A stretch of 64,000 nucleotides of DNA from Bacteroides sp. 224 (GTDB lineage: Bacteria; Bacteroidota; Bacteroidia; Bacteroidales; Bacteroidaceae). The notes under the pieces were generated by a model, which saw nothing but the letters and a program-made list of their open reading frames with translations, did no database searches and was not told the DNA's origin. Location of the stretch: NCBI RefSeq assembly GCF_010500995.1, contig NZ_QVMK01000004.1, positions 124,001-188,000 on the forward strand. The letters run 5' to 3'. The translations under genes and the position numbers were made by a program. Below, piece after piece: positions 29,989 through 46,259 of the stretch (its first letter is position 1; each line of letters opens with the position of its first letter).

Positions 29989-30869
29989 AAAAACTAAAAG
30001 TAGGGTTGGTTCAGCAGGCAAATACATCCGACGTAGAGAAGAATTTGGAGAATCTGGCAAAGAATATAGAGCTGTGTGCACAGGAAGGTGCGCAACTCAT
30101 TGTCTTGCAAGAACTTCATAATACACTTTATTTTTGCCAGACAGAAAATACTCAGTTATTTGATTTAGCGGAACCCATTCCTGGTCCTTCTACTGAGTTC
30201 TACTCCAAATTAGCAAAAAAATACAATATAGTATTGATTACCTCCCTGTTTGAGAAACGAGCACCAGGATTATATCATAACACCGCAGTTGTATTTGATA
30301 CTAATGGAGAGATAGCCGGAAAATATAGAAAGATGCATATCCCCGATGATCCTGCATATTACGAAAAATTCTATTTTACTCCCGGTGATATTGGATTTGA
30401 GCCCATACAAACATCTTTAGGGAAATTAGGAGTACTTATTTGCTGGGATCAATGGTACCCGGAAGCGGCCCGATTAATGGCATTAAAAGGGGCAGAAATT
30501 CTAATCTACCCAACTGCTATCGGCTGGGAAAGCAGTGACACCCCCGAAGAACAAAGTAGGCAATTAAATGCATGGATAATTTCGCAACGTGCTCATGCCG
30601 TAGCCAATGGAATTCCGGTTATTTCTGTTAACCGTGTAGGTCACGAACCCGATCCTTCATCACAAACAAATGGTATCTCATTCTGGGGAAATAGCTTTGT
30701 TGCAGGTCCTCAAGGGGAAATTTTGGCGCAGGCAGGCAATGAGAACCCAGAGAACATCATTGTAGATTTAGATCTTACACGTTCGGAAAATGTACGTCGC
30801 TGGTGGCCTTTCCTCCGAGATAGAAGAATTGATAAATATCAAGGGATGATGGAAAGATATTTGGATTGA
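29985..30869 (+). CDS. aguB: N-carbamoylputrescine amidohydrolase
   Basis: Nitrilase-superfamily enzyme that hydrolyses N-carbamoylputrescine to putrescine, CO2 and ammonia. The Glu-Lys-Cys triad is visible: QELHNTLYF, YRKMHIPDD and LICWDQWYPEAAR. I chose the ATG at 29985, which overlaps the aguA stop as ATGA. The frame runs 24 residues further into aguA, but that part has no family similarity. The length of 294 is typical. Confidence 0.95.
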   Translation: MKKLKVGLVQQANTSDVEKNLENLAKNIELCAQEGAQLIVLQELHNTLYFCQTENTQLFDLAEPIPGPSTEFYSKLAKKYNIVLITSLFEKRAPGLYHNTAVVFDTNGEIAGKYRKMHIPDDPAYYEKFYFTPGDIGFEPIQTSLGKLGVLICWDQWYPEAARLMALKGAEILIYPTAIGWESSDTPEEQSRQLNAWIISQRAHAVANGIPVISVNRVGHEPDPSSQTNGISFWGNSFVAGPQGEILAQAGNENPENIIVDLDLTRSENVRRWWPFLRDRRIDKYQGMMERYLD

Positions 30870-31041
30870 ATATTAAATAACTAATAATACTACAGAAATA
30901 ACTCTCAAATGACATAAAATAATCTGGTTATTATACACACACATTACTCAGTATTGAAATTTTATGTTACTTTTGCGGATTTATTATGAGTAGTTAGTAA
31001 ACTACTAAATTTGCACTATAGATTTTTATATATATATTTTA

Positions 31042-32391
31042 ATGGAAACTAAAAGCACTGATCTGAAAGACCAAATATTATCTTTAGTATCTGAATACTA
31101 TAAACAGAAGTTTGGTGAAACCAAAGCATTTGTCCCTGAGAAAATGTTCGTAAATTATGGAGGACGATATTTTGATGAAAAAGAACTAATAAATCTTGTT
31201 GACTCTTCGCTGGATTTCTGGTTAACAGCCGGTCCGTGGGCACATAAATTTGAAAAACGATTTGCACAATGGCTGGGGGTTTCTTTCTGCTCATTAACAA
31301 ATTCCGGGTCTTCAGCTAATCTTCTTGCCTTCATGGCACTAACAGCCCAAGAACTGGGTGATAGACGCATCAAACGTGGAGATGAGGTTATTACTGTGGC
31401 ATGCGGTTTCCCTACTACTGTAACCCCATGTATTCAATATGGAGCAGTTCCGGTTTTTGTTGATGTTACAATACCTGAATATAATATTGATGTAACTCAG
31501 CTTGAAGCAGCTCTTTCACCTAAGACCAAGGCTGTAATGATAGCCCATTCATTAGGAAATCCTTTTAACTTAGCTGCCGTAAAAGAATTCTGTGACAAAC
31601 ATAACCTTTGGTTAGTTGAAGATAATTGTGATGCATTAGGTTCTACCTATACTATAGGAGGAGAAAAGAAAAAAACAGGTACTGTGGGGCACATTGGCAC
31701 CAGTAGCTTCTACCCTCCTCACCACATGACTATGGGAGAAGGCGGTGCTGTATATACAAACGATCCACTACTACATAAACTCGTAAATTCTTTCCGCGAC
31801 TGGGGACGTGACTGCTGGTGTGTAGGAGGTATTGATAATACATGCAAACATCGTTTCGATAAACAATTTGGCGAGCTTCCGGTAGGATACGATCATAAAT
31901 ATGTTTATTCTCATTTCGGATATAATCTGAAAGTAACAGATATGCAAGCAGCCATTGGTTGTGCACAATTAGATAAACTGGATGATATAGTAGAAGCCCG
32001 CAAAAGAAACTTCTCTATATTGAGACAAGGTCTTGAAGGCATTGAAAGTCTGATACTTCCCGAACCTCAAACAGATTCAGAGCCCAGTTGGTTTGGCTTC
32101 TTGATTACAGTGAAAGAAAATGCAGGATTCAGCCGGAATGATTTAGCCAAACATCTGGAAGAAAAGAAAGTTCAAACCAGAAATCTTTTTGCCGGCAATT
32201 TGTTGAAACACCCTGCCTTCGATGAAATGAGAAAATCGGGAGAAGGCTATCGAGTGGTTGGAGATCTTAAAACAACTGATTACATAATGAATAATACATT
32301 ATGGATTGGAGTTTATCCGGGAATGACTGATGAAATGTTGCAATACATGATATCTGTTATAAAAACTTTTACTTTAAAGCACACTAAATAA
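31042..32391 (+). CDS. rfbH: CDP-4-keto-6-deoxyglucose 3-dehydratase (E1, RfbH)
   Basis: PMP-dependent iron-sulfur enzyme that removes the C3 hydroxyl of CDP-4-keto-6-deoxyglucose. It has the sugar-aminotransferase fold, but the usual lysine is a histidine (FYPPHHMTMGEGG), the E1 hallmark, and the [2Fe-2S] cysteines are in RDCWCVGGIDNTC. Length is 449 residues. It needs an E3 reductase (RfbI/AscD type), which is not in this window. It is the first gene of the glycan cluster, with TAnnTTTG -7-like boxes at 30968-30975 and 31006-31013. Confidence 0.95.
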   Translation: METKSTDLKDQILSLVSEYYKQKFGETKAFVPEKMFVNYGGRYFDEKELINLVDSSLDFWLTAGPWAHKFEKRFAQWLGVSFCSLTNSGSSANLLAFMALTAQELGDRRIKRGDEVITVACGFPTTVTPCIQYGAVPVFVDVTIPEYNIDVTQLEAALSPKTKAVMIAHSLGNPFNLAAVKEFCDKHNLWLVEDNCDALGSTYTIGGEKKKTGTVGHIGTSSFYPPHHMTMGEGGAVYTNDPLLHKLVNSFRDWGRDCWCVGGIDNTCKHRFDKQFGELPVGYDHKYVYSHFGYNLKVTDMQAAIGCAQLDKLDDIVEARKRNFSILRQGLEGIESLILPEPQTDSEPSWFGFLITVKENAGFSRNDLAKHLEEKKVQTRNLFAGNLLKHPAFDEMRKSGEGYRVVGDLKTTDYIMNNTLWIGVYPGMTDEMLQYMISVIKTFTLKHTK

Positions 32392-32399
32392 TTTTAATA

Positions 32400-33176
32400 A
32401 TGAAAGCCGTAATTCTTGCAGGTGGCTTCGGTACACGATTGAGCGAAGCTACTACATCGATTCCTAAACCTATGGTTGAAATTGGAGGTAAACCTATTCT
32501 TTGGCATATCATGAAAGCTTACAACTACTACGGCATTAATGAATTTATTATTTGCTGTGGATATAAGCAATATATAATCAAAGAATATTTCGCCAACTAT
32601 TTTCGACATAACTGTGACCTGACAGTAGACCTATCGAATAATACAGTACAAGTACATGACTCCCACTCCGAGAATTGGAAAGTTACTATGGTAGACACCG
32701 GTTTAAATACAATGACCGGAGGACGCATTAAGCGTATTCAACAATATGTAGGCAATGAACCATTTTTGTTGACCTATGGTGATGGAGTATCCGATTTGAA
32801 TATAGCCGATTCAATAAAAGCTCATCAAGAATCCGGATGTATTCTTTCTGTTACTGCTTATAAGCCGGGAGGTAAATTTGGAGCCTTACAAATAGATTTG
32901 GAAACTGATAAAGTCCTTTCTTTTCAAGAGAAACCCGATGGAGACCGCAACTGGATTAACGCAGGATTTTTCGTTTGCGAACCAGAAGTTTTTGATTTTA
33001 TCCCAGATGGAGACAATGTAACCTTTGAACGAAAACCCTTGGAAAACATTGCTCGTGCAGGTAAAATGCATGCTTATCGTCATAACGGATTCTGGAAACC
33101 AATGGATACTCTAAGAGATAACAACGAGTTAAATGAAATGTGGGATGCCGGAGAAGCGCCCTGGAAAGTATGGTAA
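32400..33176 (+). CDS. rfbF: Glucose-1-phosphate cytidylyltransferase
   Basis: Makes CDP-glucose from glucose 1-phosphate and CTP, the entry to CDP-dideoxyhexoses. It has the nucleotidyltransferase signature LAGGFGTRLSEATTSIPKPM, then TYGDGVSDL and NAGFFVCEPEVF. Length is 258 residues. It lies 8 bases after rfbH and 2 bases before rfbG. Confidence 0.96.
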   Translation: MKAVILAGGFGTRLSEATTSIPKPMVEIGGKPILWHIMKAYNYYGINEFIICCGYKQYIIKEYFANYFRHNCDLTVDLSNNTVQVHDSHSENWKVTMVDTGLNTMTGGRIKRIQQYVGNEPFLLTYGDGVSDLNIADSIKAHQESGCILSVTAYKPGGKFGALQIDLETDKVLSFQEKPDGDRNWINAGFFVCEPEVFDFIPDGDNVTFERKPLENIARAGKMHAYRHNGFWKPMDTLRDNNELNEMWDAGEAPWKVW

Positions 33177-33178
33177 AC

Positions 33179-34252
33179 ATGTCTATAGATTTATATAATA
33201 ATTTCTATCGAGGCAAACGCGTTCTAATTACAGGACATACAGGATTTAAAGGATCTTGGATGGCTATTTGGCTACACCAGCTTGGAGCCGAAGTAATTGG
33301 GTTTGCGCTTGACCCTGCTACTGATAAAGATAATTATGTTCTTTCCGGCATTGGGAGCAAGATTACAGATATACGAGGAGATATTCGCGATGGTAATCTC
33401 TTAAAAGACGTTTTTCAACAATACCAACCGGAAATTGTATTTCATCTGGCAGCTCAACCCTTAGTTAGGTTAAGCTACGAGATACCCGTTGAAACATACG
33501 AAACCAATGTAATGGGTAGCATTCATGTAATGGAAGCCATCAGAGTAACCCCCAGTGTAAAAATTGCTGTTATGATAACCACAGATAAATGCTATGAAAA
33601 TAAAGAGCAGATCTGGGGGTATCGTGAGGATGAACCAATGGGAGGATATGACCCCTACTCCAGTAGTAAAGGAGCAGCAGAAATTGCTATTGCTTCATGG
33701 CGTCGCTCTTTCTTTCATCCCAACAGTTATTCCAAACACGGAAAATCAATAGCCAGTGCTCGTGCCGGTAACGTGATTGGTGGTGGCGACTGGGCACTGG
33801 ATCGAATAATCCCCGATTGCATAAGAGCATTGGAAGCGAACAAAACAATTGATATTCGCAGTCCCAAAGCTATCCGTCCGTGGCAGCATGTATTAGAACC
33901 TTTAAGTGGATACATGCTATTAGCTCAAAAAATGTGGAATGATCCCATCAGCTATTGCGAAGGTTGGAACTTTGGTCCTCATGCCGAATCCATAGCTAAT
34001 GTATGGGAAGTAGCTACACAAGTTATAAAAAGCTACGGAAAAGGCGAATTAAAAGACCTCTCCGACCCTACAGCCGTTCATGAAGCTAAATTGTTGATGC
34101 TTGATATTTCGAAAGCGGTGTTCAAGTTAGGATGGAAGCCTCGATTAAATCTTTCGGAAACGGTTGGGTTGACAACTGAGTGGTATAAGAGGTATAAGAA
34201 AGAAAGTGTGTATGATTTGTGTGTGGAACAGATAAAATCTTTTACTTTATAA
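33179..34252 (+). CDS. rfbG: CDP-glucose 4,6-dehydratase
   Basis: Extended short-chain dehydrogenase that makes CDP-4-keto-6-deoxyglucose. The NAD-binding GHTGFKGSW, MITTDKCYEN and catalytic YDPYSSSKGAAE (YxxxK) are present. I chose the ATG at 33179 (MSIDLYNNFY). A second ATG at 33170 overlaps the rfbF stop. Length is 357 residues. It is the last gene of normal base composition. The next gene starts on its final base, and AT content rises sharply there. Confidence 0.95.
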   Translation: MSIDLYNNFYRGKRVLITGHTGFKGSWMAIWLHQLGAEVIGFALDPATDKDNYVLSGIGSKITDIRGDIRDGNLLKDVFQQYQPEIVFHLAAQPLVRLSYEIPVETYETNVMGSIHVMEAIRVTPSVKIAVMITTDKCYENKEQIWGYREDEPMGGYDPYSSSKGAAEIAIASWRRSFFHPNSYSKHGKSIASARAGNVIGGGDWALDRIIPDCIRALEANKTIDIRSPKAIRPWQHVLEPLSGYMLLAQKMWNDPISYCEGWNFGPHAESIANVWEVATQVIKSYGKGELKDLSDPTAVHEAKLLMLDISKAVFKLGWKPRLNLSETVGLTTEWYKRYKKESVYDLCVEQIKSFTL

Positions 34253-35136
34253 TGAAGAATATTTTATTAACTGGAGGAAATGGATTTATTGGTAAAAATA
34301 TTCTTGAGAGTTTTTTAGCTGATAAATATTCTATAAAAGCCCCCTCAAGTAAGGAATTAGATTTAGTTGATGAAGAAAGTGTAGAAAAGTATTTCTCAAC
34401 ATATTCTCCAGACATTGTAATTCATGCAGCAGTAAAGCCAAGTCATCGTAATGCAATAGACTTTAATAATATACTCTATTCAAATACAAGAATGTTTTTC
34501 AACTTGGAAAGATATTCACAGTATTTTGAAAAGATGTTAGTTATAGGATCTGGTGCTATTTATGATATGCGATATTATCATTCTAAAATGAAAGAAGAAG
34601 ATTATATTAGGCATATCCCTGTTGATGAACACGGCTATTGCAAATATATCTGCGAAAAGGTTATAGAAAAGTCTTCAAATATTTATGACTTACGAGTTTT
34701 TGGAATTTATGGAAAATATGAAGATTATGCCATTCGATTTATTTCAAATGCTATTTGCAAAACAATATTTAATTTACCAATTACCATTAAACAAAACAGA
34801 AAATTTGATTATCTTTTTATAGATGATTTAATGCCTATATTAGATTGGTTTATTACACAAAATCCTCTGTACAAATCCTATAATATTACTCCAGACAATT
34901 CTGTTTCCTTACAAGAATTAGCTTTTTTAGTTAATCAGAATGCCAATAGAGAATTACCAATTAAAATAGTACAAGATGGTTTAGGATTAGAGTATAGTGG
35001 TGATAATTCAAGACTAAAGAATGAGTACCAGAGTATACACTTCACATCTCCATCCGAAGGAATTAAAAAATTATTCAAATGGTACAATAGTCGTAAAAAC
35101 ATAATCAATAAAGAGTTACTACTGATAGACAAATAA
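34252..35136 (+). CDS. SDR-family NAD(P)-dependent sugar reductase/epimerase
   Basis: Extended SDR of 294 residues: N-terminal LTGGNGFIGKNILESF, then VIHAAVKPS, a Ser-containing IGSGAIYD and the YICEK active site (YxxxK). By position after RfbF-G-H it may reduce the 4-keto group of the CDP-3,6-dideoxyhexose (RfbJ/RfbS role), or the acetyl branch in a yersiniose-type route (YerF role). The ATG at 34252 uses the last base of the rfbG stop. A longer frame into rfbG is less likely. AT-rich codon use begins here. Confidence 0.8.
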   Translation: MKNILLTGGNGFIGKNILESFLADKYSIKAPSSKELDLVDEESVEKYFSTYSPDIVIHAAVKPSHRNAIDFNNILYSNTRMFFNLERYSQYFEKMLVIGSGAIYDMRYYHSKMKEEDYIRHIPVDEHGYCKYICEKVIEKSSNIYDLRVFGIYGKYEDYAIRFISNAICKTIFNLPITIKQNRKFDYLFIDDLMPILDWFITQNPLYKSYNITPDNSVSLQELAFLVNQNANRELPIKIVQDGLGLEYSGDNSRLKNEYQSIHFTSPSEGIKKLFKWYNSRKNIINKELLLIDK

Positions 35137-35141
35137 AAAAA

Positions 35142-36908
35142 ATGATTCAACGTTATTTATATAATTATAAAGTAGGAATTGCAATTTCAATTGCTTTCTT
35201 TTATCAATTAATCTGTATTATTCAAGGATTTGATCTATCAGATGAAGGCTGGTTAATGTACTTCTATCAACAAATATTTAGAAATCCAGAAAGTGTAGAA
35301 GCACAGATGCCCTACTGGTTTACTGGAATTATTGGAGGTCTATGGTATAAACTATGGCCAGAAGGTGGTTTTTTCTCTATGCGCCTATTAGGTATAATGA
35401 TTAATACTTTTATGCTTTATGTTATCTATCGGTTTCTAAAACGATTTATAAATACTCCTTTATTATTAATTGCTTTGTTAGCTCAGGTTTTAATAGTTTC
35501 CGGAGACCCTAAGCCTTTTGGCTATAACCCATTATCAGCTTTTTTAGTAATATTTGTCATTATCATATTCTATTATGGGGTTGAAAAGAAAAATGTTTTT
35601 TATTTCATAACAGGCGGTTTTATTTTAGGCTTAACCTTTTTTGTTCGATTACCTAATGTAGTATATTCTATTTTCTTATTATTAATACCATTTTATCAAT
35701 CAATAAAAGAGAAAAAGTTGATTCTCATAAATAAGCAAATTATATCAGCAATTCTAGGGGTTATTATAGCGATATTTTTTTGTTTAGCTTTAATGAAAGT
35801 TCTGGGGCATTTTGAGATTTATGTAAATTCAATATCTGATATAATAAACACTTCTTCAGATGAAACTAATTCGCATAAATTAGGGACAATGCTATCAATT
35901 TACATTAAAAACTATGTTAGTATATTGTACATAGCATCTTTTTTTCTTGGACTAGGATTGATTTATATTGTTCTTAGATATTATATCTCAATAAAAATAT
36001 TTAGCTATTTTCTTCAAAGTTTGATTACTGTTTTTATAGGATATTTATCTATAAAATATAATCAAGCGCTAAGAGACTATGATATGTTTTTTATTAATTT
36101 CATATCCTTATTGGGGATTATTCTTTTATTTTTTAATTGGCGTAAAGAGCAAGTTAGCATTAAATATATTGGAATAGCATCTTTACTTATGGTATTATTC
36201 ACATCTGTAGGAAGTGATCATGGTATACTTACTATGTGGACATCAACATGGTTATCATTGCCTTTCGCTATAGCATATATATATAAATCTATTCAGGATT
36301 TTAAAATTAAATTCAAAAAGATTCAGCTTATTATTCTCAAAAAAAGTATTATAGAGTATTCAATTATTATTATTGTAGTCTTTTTTATTACTGGTATTTA
36401 TAAAGTAGATTGTTGCGCATACTATGATCCTGGTTGTAGAAAAGAAAAAATATTCTCTATCAACAATAAATTTTGCCATAATATCTACACTAATGAATAT
36501 AGAACCAAACTAACTAATGAATTATTAGTTGGTTTATCATTGTATGTTAAGCCAAATGATTATTTATTGGCATATGATTTTATTCCGGGAATAAATTATC
36601 TTACAGAAACACGTTCTTATACATCAAATTCATGGATACATTTTTATTCAGATAATAGATTACACTTAGCATTAGAAAAAGCTGTAATAGAGAAAAAGAC
36701 TCTTCCTGTAATTGTTAGGCATCATTTTCTACCCTGTAACAAATGGAGCGAATATGATCCAGACTATTATAATGAAAATCGTCCGGAAAGTCCTCATTTC
36801 AAAAATAAACGTACTCAAGCTATAAATAGATTCATATCAAGTTATGATTATAAAACAGCTTGGAGTAATCAACATTTTGAGATCCTAATTCCACAAAACA
36901 TATATTGA
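35142..36908 (+). CDS. GT-C-like polytopic membrane glycosyltransferase, paralogue 1
   Basis: A 588-residue membrane protein with about ten or more hydrophobic helices in the first 410 residues and a soluble C-terminal part after residue 420. Right after the first helix comes GFDLSDEGWLMYF. An acidic Asp-Glu in the first outer loop is the mark of GT-C enzymes, which use polyprenyl-phosphate sugars. Other conserved blocks are GDPKPFGYNPLSAF and FVRLPN. It is a tandem paralogue of the next gene. Its neighbours GtrA, GT2 and UbiA support a lipid-linked donor. The acceptor and sugar are unknown, and the GT-C call rests on topology and the acidic motif. Confidence 0.7.
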   Translation: MIQRYLYNYKVGIAISIAFFYQLICIIQGFDLSDEGWLMYFYQQIFRNPESVEAQMPYWFTGIIGGLWYKLWPEGGFFSMRLLGIMINTFMLYVIYRFLKRFINTPLLLIALLAQVLIVSGDPKPFGYNPLSAFLVIFVIIIFYYGVEKKNVFYFITGGFILGLTFFVRLPNVVYSIFLLLIPFYQSIKEKKLILINKQIISAILGVIIAIFFCLALMKVLGHFEIYVNSISDIINTSSDETNSHKLGTMLSIYIKNYVSILYIASFFLGLGLIYIVLRYYISIKIFSYFLQSLITVFIGYLSIKYNQALRDYDMFFINFISLLGIILLFFNWRKEQVSIKYIGIASLLMVLFTSVGSDHGILTMWTSTWLSLPFAIAYIYKSIQDFKIKFKKIQLIILKKSIIEYSIIIIVVFFITGIYKVDCCAYYDPGCRKEKIFSINNKFCHNIYTNEYRTKLTNELLVGLSLYVKPNDYLLAYDFIPGINYLTETRSYTSNSWIHFYSDNRLHLALEKAVIEKKTLPVIVRHHFLPCNKWSEYDPDYYNENRPESPHFKNKRTQAINRFISSYDYKTAWSNQHFEILIPQNIY

Positions 36909-36937
36909 TAATAGATATAATATAAATAAAACTTCTT

Positions 36938-38698
36938 ATGGTTCAATTCATTAGTAAACACAAATTGGCAATTACTTTATTAATAGCTTTCCTATATCAA
37001 TTATTGTGTATCATCCAAGGATTCGATTTATCCGATGAAGGATGGTTAATGTATTTCTGCCAACAAATATTTAAAAATCCGGAATGCGTAGAAGCACAAA
37101 TGCCTTATTGGTTTACAGGAATAATAGGGGGAGCATGGTATGAGCTATGGCCAGGAGGCGGTTTTTTCTTTATGCGCTTTTTAGGAATAAGTATAAATAC
37201 TTTAATGGCATATTTGATTTATACATTTCTAAAACGATTTATAGATAATCCATTATTGTTACTAGGTTTATTAGTTCAGGTAGTAGTTGTAGCAGGTGAT
37301 CCTAAACCATTTGGATATAATCCACTATCAGCTTTCCTAGTAATCTTCGTTATTATTTTATTTTTTAGTGGAATGGAGCAAAAGAAACTGTCACATTTAT
37401 TTTTAGGTGGCATCATATTAGGATTAAACTTTTTTGTTAGACTACCTAATATCTCTTATTTAGTATTCATTCTGCTTATTCCAATTTACCATTACATAAA
37501 ATATAATAAAATTGTTATTATAAATAAAGAAATGCTCATTTCAATATTAGGAGTATTAACAGCTGTTTTAATTTGTATAGTTTCAATGAAGTCACTTGGT
37601 CACTGGAATTTGTATCTAAATTCTTTAACTGATACTATTGCGAGTGCTTCTGATGAGACAAACTCTCACCAGCTAGGTGCAATGTTGCTAGTATATTTGA
37701 AAAACTACAAAGGAATTTTTCTTGTTGGCCTCTTTTTTATTGGAATAGGTGTTTTTTATTCTTATTCTACAAACAAAATAAAAAGCATATATTATAAACG
37801 AATTATTCAAATTATACTCCTATTTTTTATAAGCTATTTATCCATAATGTTAAATAAGGCTTTGAGGCATAATGATATGTATTTCGTTAATTTTATTTCT
37901 TTATTAGGAATTATCCTACTTTTTATTAACCGAAAAAAAGAGTCGTACAGATTAAAATTTATTGGACTTGCATCTTTGTTTATGGTTTTGTTTATATCTA
38001 TTGGTAGCGATAAAGGCATAAAAACAATGTGGACTTCTACATGGCTTTCACTCCCATTTGCTACAGCATATATTTATAAATGTATCAGAGGATTTAAATT
38101 TAAAATAAGAAACACTGAAGTTCTCGTTTCTCGGAAAAGTATCATTGAATATTCATTAATTGTTAGCATAGTCTATTTTGTTACAGGTATTTACAAAGTT
38201 GATTATCAGGCATATTATGATCCTGGCAGTAGATGTGAGAAACTATATGCTATAGATAATAAGTTCACAAGATTGGTTTATACAAATGAATATAGAGCGA
38301 AAATAACTAATGAGTTATTAGAAAAGCTACCTGAATATATAAAACCAAATGATTATCTGCTTGCCTATGATTTTATTCCCGGAATCAATTATATGACAGA
38401 CACTCGTTCATATACTCCCAATTCATGGATTTGGTGTTATTCAGGGCATAAATTTGAATATGAACTTAAAAAGGCTGTTATCCAGAAAAAAGAATTACCT
38501 GTAATTGTTAGACAACATTTTATTGCAACGAATAGATGGGGGGATTATGATAAGAATTTCTATAATGAAAACCGAATAGAAACCGGATATTTCAAGAAAA
38601 AGAGAACACAAGTTATCAATTCTTTCATTTTAGAAAATAAATATATATCAGTATGGAATAATAAAAATTATGAAATACTTATTCCTTCTAAAAAATAA
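36938..38698 (+). CDS. GT-C-like polytopic membrane glycosyltransferase, paralogue 2
   Basis: A 586-residue protein alignable end to end with the one before it. The first 150 residues are well over half identical by eye, including the GFDLSDEGWLMYF loop, EAQMPYWFTGIIGG, GDPKPFGYNPLSAF and, near the C-terminus, LLAYDFIPGINY. Differences gather in the middle helices and the soluble tail. This looks like a tandem duplication followed by divergence, perhaps giving two acceptor or donor specificities. It lies 29 bases after paralogue 1 and 3 bases before gtrA. Confidence 0.7.
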   Translation: MVQFISKHKLAITLLIAFLYQLLCIIQGFDLSDEGWLMYFCQQIFKNPECVEAQMPYWFTGIIGGAWYELWPGGGFFFMRFLGISINTLMAYLIYTFLKRFIDNPLLLLGLLVQVVVVAGDPKPFGYNPLSAFLVIFVIILFFSGMEQKKLSHLFLGGIILGLNFFVRLPNISYLVFILLIPIYHYIKYNKIVIINKEMLISILGVLTAVLICIVSMKSLGHWNLYLNSLTDTIASASDETNSHQLGAMLLVYLKNYKGIFLVGLFFIGIGVFYSYSTNKIKSIYYKRIIQIILLFFISYLSIMLNKALRHNDMYFVNFISLLGIILLFINRKKESYRLKFIGLASLFMVLFISIGSDKGIKTMWTSTWLSLPFATAYIYKCIRGFKFKIRNTEVLVSRKSIIEYSLIVSIVYFVTGIYKVDYQAYYDPGSRCEKLYAIDNKFTRLVYTNEYRAKITNELLEKLPEYIKPNDYLLAYDFIPGINYMTDTRSYTPNSWIWCYSGHKFEYELKKAVIQKKELPVIVRQHFIATNRWGDYDKNFYNENRIETGYFKKKRTQVINSFILENKYISVWNNKNYEILIPSKK

Positions 38699-38701
38699 AT
38701 C

Positions 38702-39088
38702 ATGAATATTTTTTTAAAAAAGGTCAATACTGAGATTATTCGTTTTATTTGTGTTGGAATTATCAATACATTATTTGGTGTTGGCCTATATTGTTTATTC
38801 ATATATCTAGGTTTATCTTATAAATTCTCTGTGCTTTTAAGTACAATATTAGGAGTTTTATTTAATTTTAAAACAATTGGTACTTTTGTTTTTAAGAATA
38901 AAGAAAACAAATTAATTTTCAAATTTATAATTTCATATACTATTACTTATTTTATAAATATTGGATTAATTAGAATTCTTCTTATGTTTGAAGGAACCAA
39001 CGAATATACTGCAGGTATCTTTTCAACACCTATCGTTGCGATTATATCATACATTATCCAAAAGAATTTTGTATTCAAAAAAGCCTAA
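38702..39088 (+). CDS. gtrA: GtrA-family small membrane protein
   Basis: A 128-residue protein with four predicted helices and GtrA-family features (IIRFICVGIINTLFGVGLY, LGVLFNFKTIGTFVFK, a positively charged end). The family is thought to help flip or present polyprenyl-phosphate sugars made by a GtrB-like GT2. It is followed 6 bases later by just such a GT2 and preceded by the two GT-C-like genes, matching the GtrA-GtrB-Gtr logic of O-antigen modification. Confidence 0.88.
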   Translation: MNIFLKKVNTEIIRFICVGIINTLFGVGLYCLFIYLGLSYKFSVLLSTILGVLFNFKTIGTFVFKNKENKLIFKFIISYTITYFINIGLIRILLMFEGTNEYTAGIFSTPIVAIISYIIQKNFVFKKA

Positions 39089-39094
39089 TTTAAC

Positions 39095-40024
39095 ATGAAA
39101 AAGAAAATAAGCATTGTTACTCCTTGTTATAATGAAGAAGAGAACGTTGAAGAACTTTCTAAAGCCGTAAAATCAATATTCGAAAATCTCAATTATGATT
39201 ACGAACATATATTTATTGATAATGCATCGACAGATAATACAATAAAAAAATTGCGACAATTAGCCCAAAATGACATTAATGTTAAGGTTATATTGAACAC
39301 AAAGAATTTTGGGCATATTCGTTCTCCTTACTATGGTTTATTACAAGCATATGGTGATGCTGTGATATTAGTGGCAGCTGATTTTCAGGATCCTCCCAAT
39401 CTAATCCCCAAACTTATCGAAGAATGGGAAAAAGGTCATCCATTAGTTTTAGCTATCAAAAGTAAGAGTGAAGAAAGCCCTTTAGTTTTTGCTCTTAGAA
39501 AATTATATTATAAAGTAATAGCAAAAACATCTTCATCTGAGCACATCAGTAACTTTACAGGATTTGGTTTGTATAATCAATCTTTTATTGAGACTTTAAG
39601 AAAAGTAGATGATCCTTACCCTTATTTTCGTGGAATGGTGGCTGAATTAGGTAATAACTATTCTAAAATAGAATTTACTCAACCCATACGTACTAAAGGA
39701 AAAACTAAAAATAATATAAATACACTTTATGATATGGCTATGCTCGGTTTTGTGAATCAATCAAAATTACCTCTTCGAATGGCCTGTTTCATTGGTTTTA
39801 TATTAGCAATATTGAGTTTATTAACAGGTGTTGGATATATGGTATATAAACTAATGTATTGGGATAGTTTTAGTATAGGAATAGCTCCTTTAATAATAAG
39901 TTTATTTTTCTTTTCTTCAGTACAGCTAATATTTATTGGAATTATAGGAGAATATATTGGAGCAATTTATACTCAAGTACATAAACGTCCTTTAGTTATA
40001 GAAAAAGAAAGAATAAATTTTTAA
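39095..40024 (+). CDS. gtrB: GtrB-like polyprenyl-phosphate glycosyltransferase (GT2)
   Basis: A 309-residue GT2 enzyme. The N-terminal Rossmann-like part has SIVTPCYNEEENVEEL. Two C-terminal helices and the conserved GEYIGAIYTQVHKRP tail match GtrB/DPM1-type enzymes that transfer a hexose to polyprenyl phosphate. Odd: the usual DADLQDPP is AADFQDPP, so the first Asp of the DxD motif is Ala while the second Asp and QDPP remain. Either catalysis tolerates this or the enzyme is altered. The donor is likely UDP-glucose or similar, by family. Confidence 0.85.
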   Translation: MKKKISIVTPCYNEEENVEELSKAVKSIFENLNYDYEHIFIDNASTDNTIKKLRQLAQNDINVKVILNTKNFGHIRSPYYGLLQAYGDAVILVAADFQDPPNLIPKLIEEWEKGHPLVLAIKSKSEESPLVFALRKLYYKVIAKTSSSEHISNFTGFGLYNQSFIETLRKVDDPYPYFRGMVAELGNNYSKIEFTQPIRTKGKTKNNINTLYDMAMLGFVNQSKLPLRMACFIGFILAILSLLTGVGYMVYKLMYWDSFSIGIAPLIISLFFFSSVQLIFIGIIGEYIGAIYTQVHKRPLVIEKERINF

Positions 40025-40033
40025 TAGAACATT

Positions 40034-41845
40034 ATGATAAAGATTAGCGATTATATATTTAAGTATTTAAGAGATGCTTACCAAATTGATCATGTTTTTC
40101 TAGTCACGGGTGGTGGAGCTATGCATTTAAATAATTCTATTGGACGTACTACAGGTGTAAAATATATTTGCAACCATCACGAACAAGCATCAGCAATAGC
40201 TTCTGAGGGTTATTATAGAACATCTGGTAAGTTATCTGTTACTAATGTTACAACTGGTCCAGGGGGAACCAATGCAATAACAGGGATTCTTGGACAGTGG
40301 TGCGACTCAATACCTGGATTATATATTTCTGGACAAGTAAAAGAAAGTACAACAATTGCTTCTTGTCCTCACATAAAACTTAGACAATTAGGAGATCAAG
40401 AAGTAGACATTGTAAGCATAGTAAAACCCATCACAAAATATGCGGTAATGATTACAAATCCACTTGAAATTAAATATCATATTGATAAAGCAATTTATAT
40501 AGCTCTGAATGGTCGTCCTGGTCCTGTATGGATTGATATTCCATTAGATGTACAAGGCACAATGATTGACGAATCCAAATTGAGAGAGTTTGATGTTAAT
40601 GAAATAAAAATAGAAGAAGACAATAATACACTCTCACTTCAAATTGATCAATTAGTAAATAAAATATCTAAAGCATCAAATCCTGTAATTTATGTTGGTA
40701 ATGGAGTAAGACTAGCCAATAAAGTAGATGAATTCATAAGTATAGCAGAACAGCTTGAAATACCTGTAGTAACTGCTATTAGTGGTTCAGATATATTGTG
40801 GTATGACCATCCTCTATACTATGGTAAACCGGGTATTTGTGGAGATCGTATTGGGAACATCATGGTGCAGAACTCTGATTTAATTATTATTTTAGGTACC
40901 AGATTGAGCATTCGCCAAATTAGCTATGCATATGATTTATTTGCACCTCATGCTTATAAAGTAATGGTAGATATTGATAACGCTGAATTGAATAAACCAA
41001 CATTATCAATTGATCTTAAAATCAATGCTGACCTACGTAATTTCTTTACTATATTAAAAGAAAAGTTGAAAAATTTCACATCTCCAAGATTTAAAGAATG
41101 GAGAGAATGGGGAAAAGAATGTGAATCAGTGCTTCCTAATTTATTCACAGATAATCCATCCAGTTCTGATTATGTTAGTTCCTATATTTTTGCGGATGAA
41201 TTATTTAGTCAATTGCAAGCTGGTGATGTTGTAGTCACAGGAAATGGAACTGCATATACTTCTACTTTTCAGGCTATGAAAGTTAAAAAAGGAATAAGAG
41301 TATTTGCTAATCAGGGTTGTGCAGCTATGGGGTATGATTTACCTGCGGCTATAGGAGCAGCAGCAGCTAATACATCAGGCCAAACAATTTTAATAACAGG
41401 AGACGGTAGTATACAAATGAATTTGCAAGAACTGCAAACTTTAAAAACCTACAATCTTCCCATTAAAATATTTATTTTAGAAAATCAGGGATATTTGGCA
41501 ATAAAAACTACACAAGAGTCATTCTTTGAAGGTTATTACACTGGTAGTGATCCAAGTAGTGGCGTTATTTGCCCTGATATGGAGCGTATTGCTTATGCAT
41601 ACGACATTCCTTTTATACGTATAAAGCAAGAAGGAGAGGATTTAGTTTCTTCAATAAAAAAAGTGTTAGACGCAAAAAGTTCTATGATATGTGAAATAAA
41701 AATGAATCCTATGCAAACACTTTTCCCTAAATCAGCTTCTTTCATGGATGAAAATGGAAAAATGAGTTCAGCACCTCTAGATAAAATGGCTCCATTTTTG
41801 CCCGACGAATTACAGATAAAGTGCATTTTTCCCACAAAAAAATAA
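40034..41845 (+). CDS. ThDP-dependent acetolactate-synthase-like enzyme, possibly YerE-like
   Basis: A 603-residue enzyme with the three-domain ALS/pyruvate-oxidase layout. N-terminal Pyr domain: catalytic Glu50 in NHHEQASAIA, then TTGPGGTNAITG. Central domain: VIYVGNGVRLA. C-terminal PP domain: ITGDGSIQMNLQELQTL with ENQGY. It sits among sugar genes, away from ilv genes. With RfbF-G-H in the same cluster it recalls YerE of Yersinia, a ThDP/FAD enzyme that adds a two-carbon unit from pyruvate to CDP-4-keto-3,6-dideoxyglucose on the way to yersiniose. Other ThDP carboligases or decarboxylases of nucleotide-sugar or lipid pathways remain possible. Confidence 0.72.
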   Translation: MIKISDYIFKYLRDAYQIDHVFLVTGGGAMHLNNSIGRTTGVKYICNHHEQASAIASEGYYRTSGKLSVTNVTTGPGGTNAITGILGQWCDSIPGLYISGQVKESTTIASCPHIKLRQLGDQEVDIVSIVKPITKYAVMITNPLEIKYHIDKAIYIALNGRPGPVWIDIPLDVQGTMIDESKLREFDVNEIKIEEDNNTLSLQIDQLVNKISKASNPVIYVGNGVRLANKVDEFISIAEQLEIPVVTAISGSDILWYDHPLYYGKPGICGDRIGNIMVQNSDLIIILGTRLSIRQISYAYDLFAPHAYKVMVDIDNAELNKPTLSIDLKINADLRNFFTILKEKLKNFTSPRFKEWREWGKECESVLPNLFTDNPSSSDYVSSYIFADELFSQLQAGDVVVTGNGTAYTSTFQAMKVKKGIRVFANQGCAAMGYDLPAAIGAAAANTSGQTILITGDGSIQMNLQELQTLKTYNLPIKIFILENQGYLAIKTTQESFFEGYYTGSDPSSGVICPDMERIAYAYDIPFIRIKQEGEDLVSSIKKVLDAKSSMICEIKMNPMQTLFPKSASFMDENGKMSSAPLDKMAPFLPDELQIKCIFPTKK

Positions 41846-41962
41846 AAGAGAAATGTTACAAAAATTAAATATCAAGAAATATACTGTTGCATTTCGATTA
41901 AAAATAGCCATATTATCCAAATACTTAAATTAAGTGAAACTATATCTGAGAGTATTTTAATT

Positions 41963-42838
41963 ATGAACAAAATATTAGCACTTCTTCGAATTCATCAATG
42001 GGCTAAAAATTTTTTTATCTTTTTACCCTTGTTTTTTGATAAACGATTTGGAGACCTAAAATTACTCACAACATGTTTCATTGTTTTTCTAGGATTTTCT
42101 TTTATAACAAGTGCTGTTTATTGTTTTAATGATATTATTGATAGAGAAGATGACAAAAAGCATCCTTTAAAGAAAAAAAGGCCTATTGCTAGTGGAGATA
42201 TTACAACACTTTCAGGTTGGATAATATCTTTTTGTTTAATAATATCAGGTGGTAGCATTTTATTTTTGGCTTATAGAAGTATATCTGTAATTTTAATTGT
42301 TTTGTTATATTTAATCCTTAACATAGCATATAGCATAGAATTTAAAAGAATAGCAATTATAGATGTTTTTATTATAGGAATCGGATTTGTAATTAGAATA
42401 ATCATTGGTGGAATCATAGGAGATATCACTCTTTCTCACTGGATCGTTATTATGACATTCTTATTAGCTATATTTTTAGGATTTGCAAAACGTTTAGATG
42501 ATGTGCAAATTTACACCAAAACAGGGGTTGCAGGAAGAAAAAATATTATTAGATATAATGTACCTTTTTTATACGCACTTTTAATGATAACTTCAACAGT
42601 TACAGTTGTTGCATATCTAATGTATTCTATATCTGATGAAATTACTAATCGTTTTGGAAGTAATTATATTTACCTAACCTCTTTATTTGTAATCCTTGGT
42701 ATATTTAGATATTTGCAATTAACAATAGTTGATAAAAAAGGAGGAAGTCCAACCTTTATATTATTAAAAGATTTTTTCATACAAGGTTGTATCATTGCAT
42801 GGCTATTATCCTTTGCTTTAATAATATACTTTATATGA
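41963..42838 (+). CDS. UbiA-family prenyltransferase, polyprenyl-phosphoribose synthase-like
   Basis: A 291-residue membrane protein with 7-9 helices. The first Asp-rich motif, NDIIDREDDKKHP, followed by KKKRPIASGDI, and the second region with YSIEFKRIAIIDVF and GFAKRLDDV resemble decaprenyl-phosphate 5-phosphoribosyltransferase (Rv3806c type), where PRPP, not a quinone ring precursor, is the partner. The next gene is a HAD phosphatase overlapping by 4 bases, and UbiA-HAD pairs and fusions are known for this route. No quinone genes are near. A 117-base gap precedes it, so it may have its own promoter. Confidence 0.78.
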   Translation: MNKILALLRIHQWAKNFFIFLPLFFDKRFGDLKLLTTCFIVFLGFSFITSAVYCFNDIIDREDDKKHPLKKKRPIASGDITTLSGWIISFCLIISGGSILFLAYRSISVILIVLLYLILNIAYSIEFKRIAIIDVFIIGIGFVIRIIIGGIIGDITLSHWIVIMTFLLAIFLGFAKRLDDVQIYTKTGVAGRKNIIRYNVPFLYALLMITSTVTVVAYLMYSISDEITNRFGSNYIYLTSLFVILGIFRYLQLTIVDKKGGSPTFILLKDFFIQGCIIAWLLSFALIIYFI

Positions 42839-43422
42839 AAAAAGTAGTCGCTTTTGATTTTGATGGAACAATAACAAAACAAGATACACTTCTTGAATTT
42901 CTCAAGTTTACTCATGGATGGAAGAGCTATTTATATCTTCTATTTTTATCCCCAATTCTTTTAGCCTATAAATTAGGTATTATAAAGAATTATATTGCAA
43001 AAGAGAAATTATTTTCTCTTTTTTATAAAGGTTGGACAATTGAAGATTTTAATTCTTCATGTTCTTTATTTGCTAGTACTATTGAAACTTATTCTAGTGC
43101 ATTAGAATGCATTAAAGAACATATTAGTAATAATAATGATGTTATTATAATTAGCGCATCACTTGAAAACTGGATTTATCCATGGGCAATCTCTCATAAC
43201 ATTCATAAAGTATTAGCAACTCAAGTAGAAGTAAGTGAGGGAAAAATCACAGGAACATTTCTGAGTAAAAATTGCTACGGGCAAGAAAAAGTTAATAGAC
43301 TACTTCAATATTTTCCAATGCGAGATAACTATTATTTAATTGTATATGGAGATAGCAAAGGAGATAAAGAACTTCTTGAATATGCAGACGAAAGACATTT
43401 CAAAAAATTCAATATTAAATAA
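42835..43422 (+). CDS. HAD-superfamily (subclass IB) phosphatase
   Basis: A 195-residue phosphatase with all HAD motifs: DFDGTITKQD (nucleophile Asp8, acid Asp10), Ser in IISASLENW, Lys in the GQEKV region and the acidic YGDSKGDKEL. I chose the ATG at 42835, which overlaps the UbiA stop as ATGA. Given that coupling, it may remove the 5-phosphate from polyprenyl-phosphoryl-5-phosphoribose. A phosphoserine phosphatase-like role is the default family alternative. Confidence 0.85.
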   Translation: MKKVVAFDFDGTITKQDTLLEFLKFTHGWKSYLYLLFLSPILLAYKLGIIKNYIAKEKLFSLFYKGWTIEDFNSSCSLFASTIETYSSALECIKEHISNNNDVIIISASLENWIYPWAISHNIHKVLATQVEVSEGKITGTFLSKNCYGQEKVNRLLQYFPMRDNYYLIVYGDSKGDKELLEYADERHFKKFNIK

Positions 43423-43433
43423 TTATTTCATCA

Positions 43434-44435
43434 ATGAATAACAATTTAAAAGAACAGCGTAATCGTACTTTTGATATCTTAAAAGGAATAACAATTATTT
43501 TTGTTATTATTGGACATGCAAATCCTCCTATTTCATTATCAAGCTTTATATACAGTTTCCATTTACCTCTTTTCTTTATTATTTCGGGTTATTTTTATAA
43601 CAAAGAAAAATACTCAAATATATTCTTCCTGATTAAAAAGAAAATCAAATCATGCATTATTCCTGCATTAATTACAACCATTATGATATTTCTCTTATGG
43701 TTAATTTTCATGTGCCCTTCCCCATTCAAAGACACGCCAACAATCCATATATTAGAAGTGCTACTTGAAAATTCAAAAACTTTTCTATGGGGAAATGGAA
43801 TTAATTGTAATGGAATTACTGCTGTTGGTCCCGCTTGGTTTCTTTATTGTCTTTTTTGTGGCTTAATTATTCTTAATTTAGTATTAAGAATAAAAATCCT
43901 ATTTATACAAATCTGTGTCATTCTATTCTTAGCCCATTTAAAATATATATTCCCTAATATTCCTGTTTTGCCATGGAGTTTGGATGTTTCATTTTGGGCA
44001 GTATACTATTTATTTGTAGGATACTGTATAAATCATTTTGATTTTTTATCTATATTAAATATGAAATTGGGGTTAGTTCTAATACTCCTATTTTTAGCAA
44101 ATCCGCTATATACTTTTGTTTCGTTAAACAACAGAGACATTGAAAACATTTTACTATCTGCCATTCCTGCTATTTCATTTCTATGTTGTTTTTGTTATAT
44201 CAACAAAGTTGCGCCTAAAATATTTAACAACAAAATCGGAGATATATTAGTCTTATTCGGGAAAGAGTCTATTATTATTCTTTGTTTTCATTTACTTTGG
44301 AAAGATTGGTTATTCCCTCTTTCATTTATAAAATATAATTGGGTAATTTTATCTGTTTATATGTGTTTCACATCATATATAACCATTATTATTATATCAA
44401 ATCTAAAATTTATTTATAAACTATATCATAAATAA
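43434..44435 (+). CDS. Acyltransferase-3 family membrane protein
   Basis: A 333-residue polytopic protein of the OafA/NodX-like acyltransferase-3 family. It starts with RTFDILKGITIIFVIIGHAN, with the conserved histidine, then SFHLPLFFIISGYFY, and has about ten helices. It probably adds an acyl (often acetyl) group to the glycan made by this cluster. It is the last gene of the AT-rich block, before a bidirectional terminator shared with aspS. Confidence 0.87.
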   Translation: MNNNLKEQRNRTFDILKGITIIFVIIGHANPPISLSSFIYSFHLPLFFIISGYFYNKEKYSNIFFLIKKKIKSCIIPALITTIMIFLLWLIFMCPSPFKDTPTIHILEVLLENSKTFLWGNGINCNGITAVGPAWFLYCLFCGLIILNLVLRIKILFIQICVILFLAHLKYIFPNIPVLPWSLDVSFWAVYYLFVGYCINHFDFLSILNMKLGLVLILLFLANPLYTFVSLNNRDIENILLSAIPAISFLCCFCYINKVAPKIFNNKIGDILVLFGKESIIILCFHLLWKDWLFPLSFIKYNWVILSVYMCFTSYITIIIISNLKFIYKLYHK

Positions 44436-44449
44436 AATTATTAAGACTA

Positions 44450-44491
44450 AAAAAAATGGTCTATAGGTAATAATTCCTATTAGACCATTTC
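44450..44491. terminator. Bidirectional terminator ending the glycan cluster and aspS
   Basis: AAATGGTCTATAGG (44454-44467) pairs with CCTATTAGACCATTT (44476-44490) with one bulged base. A-rich DNA before it serves as the T-run for the minus strand. Confidence 0.75.
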
Positions 44492-44498
44492 TCTATCA

Positions 44499-46259
44499 TC
44501 AATTTTCTTTCACCTTCACCACCAAATTCAACTCTTCCAACTGTGCCGGTTCAAGCACTGAAGGAGCATCCAGCATCACATCACGTCCTGAATTATTCTT
44601 TGGGAATGCTATACAGTCGCGAATAGAATCTAAACCGGCAAACAAAGACACAAAGCGATCTAATCCATAAGCTAAACCACCATGAGGAGGTGCACCATAC
44701 TTAAATGCATTCATCAGGAAGCCAAATTGCTCTTCTGCTCTTTCGGGAGTGAATCCTAATAATTCGAACATTTTATTTTGTAAAGCACTATCATAAATAC
44801 GGATAGAGCCCCCTCCTACTTCAACGCCATTAATAACCATATCGTAAGCATTAGCACGTACCGCTCCCGGATCGGAATCGAGTAAATGGATATCTTCCGG
44901 TTTAGGAGATGTAAACGGATGATGCACAGCCATGAATCGTCCGGATTCTTCGTCCCACTCAAATAATGGGAAATCTACTACCCATAAGCAAGAGAATTGG
45001 TTTTTATCACGTAATCCTAACTGAGAAGCAACTTCCAGGCGAAGCTCACAAAGCTGTTTGCGAGTCTTCATAATATCTTCTCCGGAAAGAATTAAGATCA
45101 AATCGCCCGGTTTAGCTCCAAAAGCTTCTTTCATCTTTTGCAATACCTCTTGCGAATAGAATTTATCGACACTTGATTTTACATTTCCATCTGCTTCTAC
45201 ACGAGCATACACCATTCCTTTGGCACCAATCTGCGGTCTTTTCACAAAATCGGTTAGGGCATCCAGTTGTTTGCGCGTATAAGAAGCGGCACCTTCTGCA
45301 CAGATACCACCTACATAAGCTGCATCGTCGAATACAGAGAAACCATGACCTTTCATAATCTCCATCAGCTCAACGAATTTCATTTCAAAACGCGTATCGG
45401 GCTTATCGCTTCCGTAATACTTCATCGCATCATGCCAAGACATACGTTGGAAAGGCTCTTGAATATCTATACCTCTCAAGGATTTGAAAAGATGCTTAGA
45501 CATTCCTTCAAATATACCGAGAACATCCTCCTGATCTACAAAGCTCATCTCACAGTCGATCTGAGTAAATTCCGGTTGACGGTCGGCACGTAAATCTTCA
45601 TCGCGGAAACATTTCACGATTTGAAAATAACGATCGAAGCCGGAAACCATCAGTAATTGTTTCAATATCTGTGGAGATTGTGGTAAAGCATAGAACTGCC
45701 CGGGGTTCATGCGCGAAGGAACTACAAAGTCGCGAGCACCTTCGGGAGTTGACCCCACCAATACAGGAGTTTCAACTTCCAGGAAGCCCAATTTATCAAG
45801 ATAACTACGTACCTCAATAGTCATTTTATGACGAAGTTCCAAGTTGGCACGAACAGCATTACGACGCAAATCCAGGTAACGGTACTTCATGCGGATATCA
45901 TCGCCACCATCTGTATTATCTTCAATGGTAAATGGAGGAACTATGGAAGCATTCAATACTTTCAATTCAGATACAATGATTTCAATATCACCGGTAGGAA
46001 TATTGGCGTTTTTATTAAAACGCTCGTTCACCGAACCGGTTACTTGAATTACAAATTCGCGTCCCAGCTTATTGGCCTGGTCACAAAGTTCGGCATCTAC
46101 CTCTTCATTGAATACTAATTGAGTAATTCCATAACGGTCGCGCAGGTCAATGAAAGTCATTCCACCCATTTTACGAGAGCGTTGTACCCACCCTGCCAAG
46201 GTAACCATGTTATTCACATCGGAGATTCGAAGTTCTCCGCACGTATGCGTTCTATACAT
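44499..46259 (-). CDS. aspS: Aspartyl-tRNA synthetase
   Basis: Class II synthetase charging tRNA-Asp. N-terminal OB fold ([20 protein letters not shown]), motif 2 [18 protein letters not shown], the bacterial GAD insertion domain, and motif 3 [13 protein letters not shown]. Length is 586 residues. A -7-like TACTTTTG is on this strand at 46293-46300. The next gene upstream, a lipid kinase, has the same orientation 81 bases away. Confidence 0.97.

Follow-up and report, generated by a model that had tools for sequence, protein, structure and literature searches.

A gene island predicted to make a branched CDP-sugar

A gene island of Bacteroides sp. 224, lying within a 64,000-nucleotide stretch of contig NZ_QVMK01000004.1 (positions 124,001 to 188,000, hereafter the window), is predicted to make a C4-branched sugar of the cytidine diphosphate (CDP)-3,6-dideoxyhexose type. 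We propose, with a probability of about 0.65, that an enzyme of the island that depends on thiamine diphosphate (ThDP) joins a short acyl group to the CDP-sugar at its C4 ketone, with acetyl from pyruvate as the likeliest case. The branched sugar would likely be attached to the surface glycans of this Bacteroidales bacterium.

The precursor genes that an earlier sequence-only reading had named stand at the start of the run, and all three pass their NCBIfam equivalog cut-offs. RfbH, the CDP-4-keto-6-deoxyglucose 3-dehydrase (E1; 31042..32391, + strand), scores 729.5 bits against a cut-off of 423; RfbF, glucose-1-phosphate cytidylyltransferase (32400..33176, +), 396.5 bits against 300.25; and RfbG, CDP-glucose 4,6-dehydratase (33140..34252, +), 498.8 bits against 278.45. 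The real start of RfbG is probably downstream of the GTG at 33140. Cys196, Cys258, Cys260, Cys268 and His227 of RfbH are invariant in all 40 aligned RfbH rows; we take the cysteines to be the four cluster cysteines and His227 to replace the pyridoxal phosphate lysine. At this equivalog level of assignment the three enzymes are predicted to lead to CDP-4-keto-3,6-dideoxyglucose.

Identity of the ThDP enzyme

The ThDP-dependent carboligase (40034..41845, +) has all three TPP domains, with the catalytic Glu50, Asp121, a GDG motif at 456-458 that opens a GDG...N motif at 456-484, and Lys566. These results bear out the sequence-only reading, which had placed a ThDP enzyme with Glu50 and a short-chain dehydrogenase/reductase (SDR) in the same run; the motifs of both are present. 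Decarboxylase-superfamily domains, the catalytic Glu and the ThDP motif are those expected of the wide YerE-like class, which includes JanthE, and the genes for a CDP-4-keto-dideoxy sugar alongside agree with the gene context of that class. The nearest solved structure is 8rph (405 bits), followed by PpYerE (5ahk, 229.5 bits) and plant acetolactate synthase (ALS; 217 bits). Available text of PMC12188165 identifies 8rph as JanthE, and P0121, the JanthE sequence that we used, agrees with it at positions 297, 406, 458 and 567. By blastp the window protein is 36% identical to JanthE, 29-33% to the YerE-like rows and 28% to the IlvB-like protein of its own genome.

Two trees were built, a quick one of 70 rows and a careful one of 25 rows, both rooted on a single IlvB row and both leaving out ErwE, SpirE, RhopE and MMAR_2332. 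The window protein falls within a Bacteroidales clade (support 100 in the quick tree, 100/100 in the careful tree), which is nested in a clade of many phyla (98 and 98/100), which in turn is sister to JanthE (99 and 100/99). A clade of its own holds the YerE-like proteins from Pseudomonas and Yersinia (100 and 100/99). Both trees warn of long JanthE and YerE branches, so that the clades are better established than the deep branching order. The sequence-only reading had held that grouping with IlvB or with a decarboxylase would refute it; no such grouping was seen, and the protein sits beside JanthE. Its description of the protein as YerE-like stands in so far as CDP-3,6-dideoxyhexose genes accompany what seems to be a sugar-linked carboligase; orthology to YerE is not supported. 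By these sequence comparisons the protein is neither an IlvB nor a YerE proper, and belongs to a widespread clade to which the Yersinia enzyme is only distant kin.

The pocket residue Asp121 is shared by all 11 clade rows and by 40 of 42 distant rows; JanthE has Val at this position, whereas the YerE and IlvB rows have Phe. Tyr297 and Lys567 of JanthE are retained as Tyr298 and Lys566 in all 11 clade rows, while the corresponding letters are Ala or Val and Arg in nine YerE rows and Gly and Met in the IlvB row.

Distribution and linkage to the rfb genes

The ThDP gene has a patchy distribution, in the manner of glycan islands. It was found in 7 of 151 genomes of the family sample and in one of ten same-genus genomes, that of the window itself (E <= 1e-150 in both cases), and in 8 of 393 genomes of the order sample (E <= 1e-100, with up to three candidates per genome scored). 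A protein search for relatives scored 7997 candidates, and the 120 matches listed, the query aside, have identities of 68-76%. No relative was found at 1e-60 by tblastn in 72,556 plasmid records.

Gene neighbourhoods were counted in the best 80 of at least 566 confirmed relatives, several of these loci being fragments under 8 kb. Ten are Bacteroidales loci at 66-72% identity; the remaining 70, at 43-50%, are called distant here and come from Nitrospirae, Melainabacteria, Elusimicrobia, Spirochaetes, Alphaproteobacteria, Lachnospiraceae, Planctomycetes and others. Loci with at least 8 kb on both sides of the ThDP gene are called well-flanked (43 of the 80), and 17 separate clusters of the Bacteroidales clade, some clipped by contig ends, are called clade clusters.

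RfbH was found in 21 of the 393 order genomes (E <= 1e-120, up to four candidates per genome scored), namely in 7 of the 8 ThDP-positive genomes versus 14 of the 385 ThDP-negative ones (Fisher p 3e-9, related genomes being treated as independent). In six of the eight the two genes share a contig and stand within 10 kb of each other; the ThDP-positive genome without RfbH, G162, has a ThDP contig of only 4.4 kb. Among the best 80 loci RfbH occurs in 41, RfbG in 40, RfbF in 47 and any of the three in 53, and among the well-flanked loci the counts are 31, 31, 35 and 36. RfbG is present in 14 of the 17 clade clusters and RfbH in 13. At six loci (L085, L086, L087, L107, L064 and L100) rfbF and/or rfbG stand near the ThDP gene with no rfbH in the stretch read, and the acceptor there might be a 4-keto-6-deoxy sugar that retains O3.

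Two probable reductases that co-occur with the ThDP gene

The extended SDR (34219..35136, +) is the likely branch-ketone reductase. It has GGNGFIG and YxxxK motifs, scores below every NCBIfam cut-off and probably starts downstream of the GTG at 34219. The nearest folds to its model (predicted local distance difference test, pLDDT, 93.5) are GDP-fucose synthase and RmlD, which are 4-ketosugar reductases. With up to five candidates per genome scored, its family was found in 4 of the 393 order genomes and a second SDR, SDR2 (query from cluster L018), in 2, and all of these genomes are ThDP-positive. Taken together, six of the 8 genomes with the ThDP gene have one SDR or the other, versus none of the other 385. 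Neither was found in any of the 14 genomes that are RfbH-positive and ThDP-negative, which rules out the SDR as a general partner of RfbH.

The same pattern recurs across the loci. The window SDR family is present in 29 of the best 80, at no more than 60 bp from the ThDP gene in 11 of these 29 and across several phyla, and SDR2 occurs in 11 further loci; no locus has both. The two proteins are only 24% identical and occupy the same slot. Among the clade clusters four have the SDR, ten have SDR2, none has both and three (L026, L039 and L042) have neither. SDR and SDR2 thus go with the ThDP gene and not with RfbH, and therefore the likeliest role for both, judged from co-occurrence and fold class, is reduction of the branch ketone. 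Two RfbH-positive, ThDP-negative loci of the order, L030 (G393) and L031 (G481), hold other SDR-like proteins and are candidate loci for plain 3,6-dideoxyhexoses.

The donor of the branch

Distant loci commonly hold a gene that may make the donor. Aldolase-like enzymes of the HpcH/HpaI type and NeuB-like synthases would yield longer-chain 2-oxo acids. Counted anywhere in the stretch read, the former occur in 29 of the 70 distant loci and the latter in 18 (L045, L048, L052, L057, L063, L064, L071, L072, L079, L081, L083, L093, L096, L099, L100, L103, L104 and L109), with only L109 holding both (p 2e-4 for mutual exclusivity); one or the other is thus present in 46 of 70. The HpcH/HpaI-like name comes from Pfam scores of 27.8-42.2 bits (cut-off 25) in three proteins scanned, and the NeuB-like synthase near the ThDP gene could be a source of a long 2-oxo acid donor. 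PMC12247030 describes longer donors as accepted by JanthE and preferred by ErwE, and the long 2-oxo acids that the aldolase-like or NeuB-like enzymes would make fit the donors of ErwE.

The Bacteroidales clade differs in this respect. One of the two genes is present in 28 of 37 well-flanked distant loci versus none of six well-flanked clade loci (p 2e-6 when the same 28 of 37 are set against all 17 clade clusters). Neither was found in the stretch read of 16 of the 17 clade clusters, the window included, some of these stretches being clipped by contig ends. The single clade cluster with such a gene (L039:1591-3392) has an HpcH/HpaI-like aldolase and a PfkB protein resembling 2-keto-3-deoxygluconate (KDG) kinase between rfbH and the ThDP gene. 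This pattern suggests that the donor is ready-made, pyruvate being the simplest case, and that the product is yersiniose-like; two-carbon transfer from pyruvate by the ThDP protein is plausible. Asp121 leaves the donor question undecided because it is common to both donor types.

A further gene combination was seen among the distant loci. An AroB-related gene occurs in 13 of the 70, and that of L050 is TIGR04425-like (369.7 bits, cut-off 400). At L050:11805-14322 a short SDR and the AroB-related protein, of the cyclizing type, lie in the ThDP stretch, and the same pair is present at L043, L045, L053, L057, L058, L059, L068, L072, L081 and L084; with L050 included, 6 of these 11 loci hold the aldolase. 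Such loci may encode a route to a cyclised branched sugar, for which bradyrhizose-like chemistry is a guess.

Proposed pathway and alternatives

We propose the following pathway. RfbF and RfbG would make CDP-4-keto-6-deoxyglucose, from which RfbH would remove O3 with the help of a borrowed electron donor. The ThDP enzyme, to judge from its clade and gene linkage, would then decarboxylate a 2-oxo acid and join the acyl anion equivalent to C4, and the SDR would reduce the ketone of the branch. The predicted product is a yersiniose-like 4-C-(1-hydroxyethyl) 3,6-dideoxyhexose. GtrB would load this sugar on polyprenyl phosphate, GtrA would flip it, and one of two membrane proteins, TM1 or TM2, would transfer it to a periplasmic glycan.

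Several observations weigh against this proposal. No dedicated E3 reductase (RfbI/DdhD) was recognised in the genome, where a search with PF00175 (NAD_binding_1) matched three places; the sequence-only reading had already noted its absence from the window, which agrees with our result. Two of the matches were read as NqrF (L003) and as an Nfn/glutamate-synthase-like protein (L005), and the third, in the window at ~11926-12198, was provisionally taken for PyrK by its length and location. With an assembly completeness of 99.99% it is unlikely but possible that the gene was missed, and RfbH would need electrons from another reductase. The linkage has exceptions: the rfb genes of G473 lie on a contig other than that of the ThDP gene, 7 of the 43 well-flanked loci have none of rfbF, rfbG and rfbH, and clade clusters L026 and L042 have neither rfb genes in the stretch read nor either SDR. 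So does the reductase pattern: both SDRs are missing from ThDP-positive genomes G315 and G355 and from 3 of the 17 clade clusters, and the SDR2 match of G473 (36% identity, 6.8e-41) is barely inside the 1e-40 threshold, so that the count without this genome is 5 of 8. In the window itself the SDR gene is 4.9 kb away from the ThDP gene. The likeness to JanthE is also incomplete. Cys458, Met406, Val121, Tyr268, Pro293, His494 and Phe564 of JanthE differ in the window protein, which with Gly456 and Asn404 lacks the JanthE-like combination of a CDG motif and Met406. Tyr268 and Pro293, which stabilise flavin adenine dinucleotide in JanthE, align with Cys269 and Arg294, the Arg being common to the YerE and IlvB rows. 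The retained Tyr and Lys are weak evidence because, in the available text of PMC12188165, Lys567 and Tyr297 of JanthE lie more than 10 A away from the reactive centre, and activity is near normal in Tyr297 variants. The same text describes the physiological substrates of JanthE as unknown, and clade membership therefore leaves the acceptor unfixed.

The alternatives concern the donor, the reductase and the ThDP protein itself. The enzyme might branch the CDP-sugar from a 2-oxo acid that is longer or carries functional groups, supplied by general metabolism or by a gene elsewhere in the genome, and the product would then be larger than a yersiniose-like octose. The donor range of JanthE and ErwE, the 46 distant loci with an aldolase-like or NeuB-like gene and the gene content of L039 all speak for this; the 16 clade clusters with no donor-making gene speak against it, a result that covers the stretches read, and Asp121 is indecisive. 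We consider such a donor the less likely one in the window. In another account the SDR would act on the C4 ketone itself, giving a plain dideoxyhexose like paratose or abequose, and the ThDP enzyme would have some other substrate. The fold class of the SDR is that of 4-ketosugar reductases, and RfbF, RfbG and RfbH with such a reductase are enough for plain dideoxyhexoses. The absence of both SDRs from all 14 RfbH-positive, ThDP-negative genomes and the close spacing of SDR and ThDP genes in several phyla argue the other way, and the co-occurrence of SDR and SDR2 with the ThDP gene makes this account improbable.

Relatives of the ThDP protein are labelled acetolactate synthase in the source databases, and the ALS equivalog model TIGR00118 gives it 330 bits, which could mean a spare acetolactate synthase or decarboxylase riding in the island. 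That score is under the 538-bit cut-off, however, and the low identity to the genome's own IlvB-like protein, the tree, the Asp that replaces the pocket Phe of YerE and IlvB in every clade row and the strong rfb linkage led us to reject an IlvB or decarboxylase reading, to which we give very little credence.

The island and its borders

The run of + strand genes that begins at 31042 continues past the end of the ThDP gene at 41845 up to 44435, an extension that goes beyond the sequence-only reading, as does the island itself. Comparison of the flanks among same-genus genomes delimits a 13.6-kb block of twelve genes (30870..44498) between an aguB-like gene, which ends at 30869, and an aspS-like gene (44499-46259, - strand), both named from a reading of their translations. 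Each flank occurs in all but one of the 21 same-genus genomes, that of the window counted, and 14 of the 20 other genomes searched carry both on a single contig. There the gap between flanks is 348-696 bp in ten genomes, 1.4-2.4 kb in three and 37.6 kb in one (G554), so that the spacing is under 2.5 kb in 13 of 14 testable genomes versus 13.6 kb in the window. The segment is an island between flank genes that usually lie close together. A scan for terminators in 30800-44600 came up empty, where shuffled sequence gave 5.8 on average, and operon ends were not set from it.

Delivery and accessory genes

Between the SDR and ThDP genes lie four candidates for delivery of the sugar. TM1 (35142..36908, +), a membrane protein like the glycosyltransferases (GT) of the GT-C fold and a candidate glycosyltransferase, has no Pfam matches. 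Its model, made from six sequences, has a pLDDT of 72, and its top 33 structural matches (TM-score <=0.51, 15 of them at E <= 0.001) are GT-C enzymes (STT3-type oligosaccharyltransferase, PglB, AglB, PMT, AftB, Emb and ALG) or translocon complexes that contain one. TM2 (36938..38698, +) is a paralogue at 61% identity, and besides the window just three clusters were seen to hold relatives of the pair: L033, L037 and L019 (= L041). They are followed by a GtrA family protein, a candidate lipid-sugar flippase (38702..39088, +; PF04138, 61.6 bits, cut-off 26.1), and a GtrB-like GT2 protein, a candidate polyprenyl-phosphate glycosyltransferase (39095..40024, +; PF00535), which is well under the cut-offs of the PgfS and ArnC-type NCBIfam models. 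A GtrB relative at >=42% identity is present in 32 of the best 80 loci and in 19 of the 43 well-flanked ones. Together GtrB, GtrA and the two GT-C-like proteins suggest lipid-linked transfer.

Beyond the ThDP gene lie a UbiA family protein resembling decaprenyl-phosphate phosphoribosyltransferase (41963..42838, +; PRK12324.1-2, 231 bits, just below the cut-off of 234), an HAD-IB phosphatase whose gene overlaps that of UbiA (42787..43422, +; TIGR01490, 106.7 bits, cut-off 98.3) and an acyltransferase-3 family membrane protein (43434..44435, +; PF01757, 72.8 bits, cut-off 31). Among the 21 same-genus genomes UbiA was found in that of the window alone (E <= 1e-20). A phmmer search (E <= 1e-5) of the open reading frames of 95 loci, with four places counted twice and three loci lacking the ThDP gene, found neither UbiA nor the HAD protein outside the window, and both were ruled out as core partners. 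We liken the pair to the first two steps toward polyprenyl-phosphate-ribose, by comparison with Rv3806c, and as a weak inference they may furnish a further lipid-linked sugar, one of ribose type.

Relation to known systems and implications

The nearest solved relative, JanthE of Janthinobacterium sp. HH01 (PDB 8rph, 8rpi and 8rpj), is a YerE-like lyase and a tested ketone-accepting carboligase, sister to the pan-phylum clade of the window protein and sharing with it the Tyr and Lys at 297 and 567; JanthE has CDG and Val121 where the window protein has GDG and Asp121. The yersiniose pathway of Y. pseudotuberculosis likewise uses a ThDP carboligase, with the same predicted acceptor, CDP-4-keto-3,6-dideoxyglucose. 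YerE itself differs by its separate clade and by Phe in the pocket, and the window genome by having no recognised E3. Available text of PMC12247030 reports that ErwE branches CDP-4-keto-3,6-dideoxyglucose, and that ErwE, MMAR_2332 and other YerE-like enzymes prefer long hydroxylated donors. The predicted acceptor in the window is the one used by ErwE; the window differs in that no donor-making gene was seen.

GtrA/GtrB/GT-C systems are late glycan modification systems. The window likewise has GT2, GtrA and GT-C-like membrane proteins in one run; it differs in having two GT-C-like paralogues and a predicted donor, a branched 3,6-dideoxy sugar, that is made in the same run. Yersiniose A and other C4-branched octoses are described in PMC4753412 from the O-antigens of a few Gram-negative genera, and the ketoreduction that gives yersiniose A and B is called uncharacterised there. 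SDR and SDR2 are candidates for a ketoreduction of this type. Among the matches listed from open-licence literature, none was relevant by title and abstract on yersiniose or branched octoses in Bacteroides, on 3,6-dideoxyhexoses in Bacteroidetes or on rfbH in Bacteroides capsules. The predicted chemistry is known; what sets the window apart is a distinct enzyme clade, distinct reductases, the donor-gene pattern and the predicted lipid-linked route in Bacteroidales.

Taken jointly, the comparisons allow a wider reading, tentative and in our estimate somewhat short of even odds, in which the window would be one member of a modular branched-sugar pathway found across phyla. Such a pathway would be built round the carboligase clade that is sister to JanthE and has Asp for the pocket Phe of ALS and YerE. 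An exchangeable donor gene, HpcH/HpaI-like aldolase or NeuB-like synthase and almost never both, would set the length of the branch and exchangeable reductases the finish, while gut-type Bacteroidales would lack the donor gene, draw on an ordinary 2-oxo acid and pass the octose to a polyprenyl-phosphate/GT-C route. Because the precursor pathway is clear, the carboligase belongs to a distinct clade and a probable reductase co-occurs with it, the cluster offers a direct test of chain-length control in ketone-accepting ThDP enzymes. The rare surface sugar is predicted also for relatives such as Xylanibacter muris (L034) and X. rodentium (L041), and if the joint reading is true, branched CDP-sugars would be widespread in anaerobic gut bacteria and no rarity of the Yersinia O-antigen.

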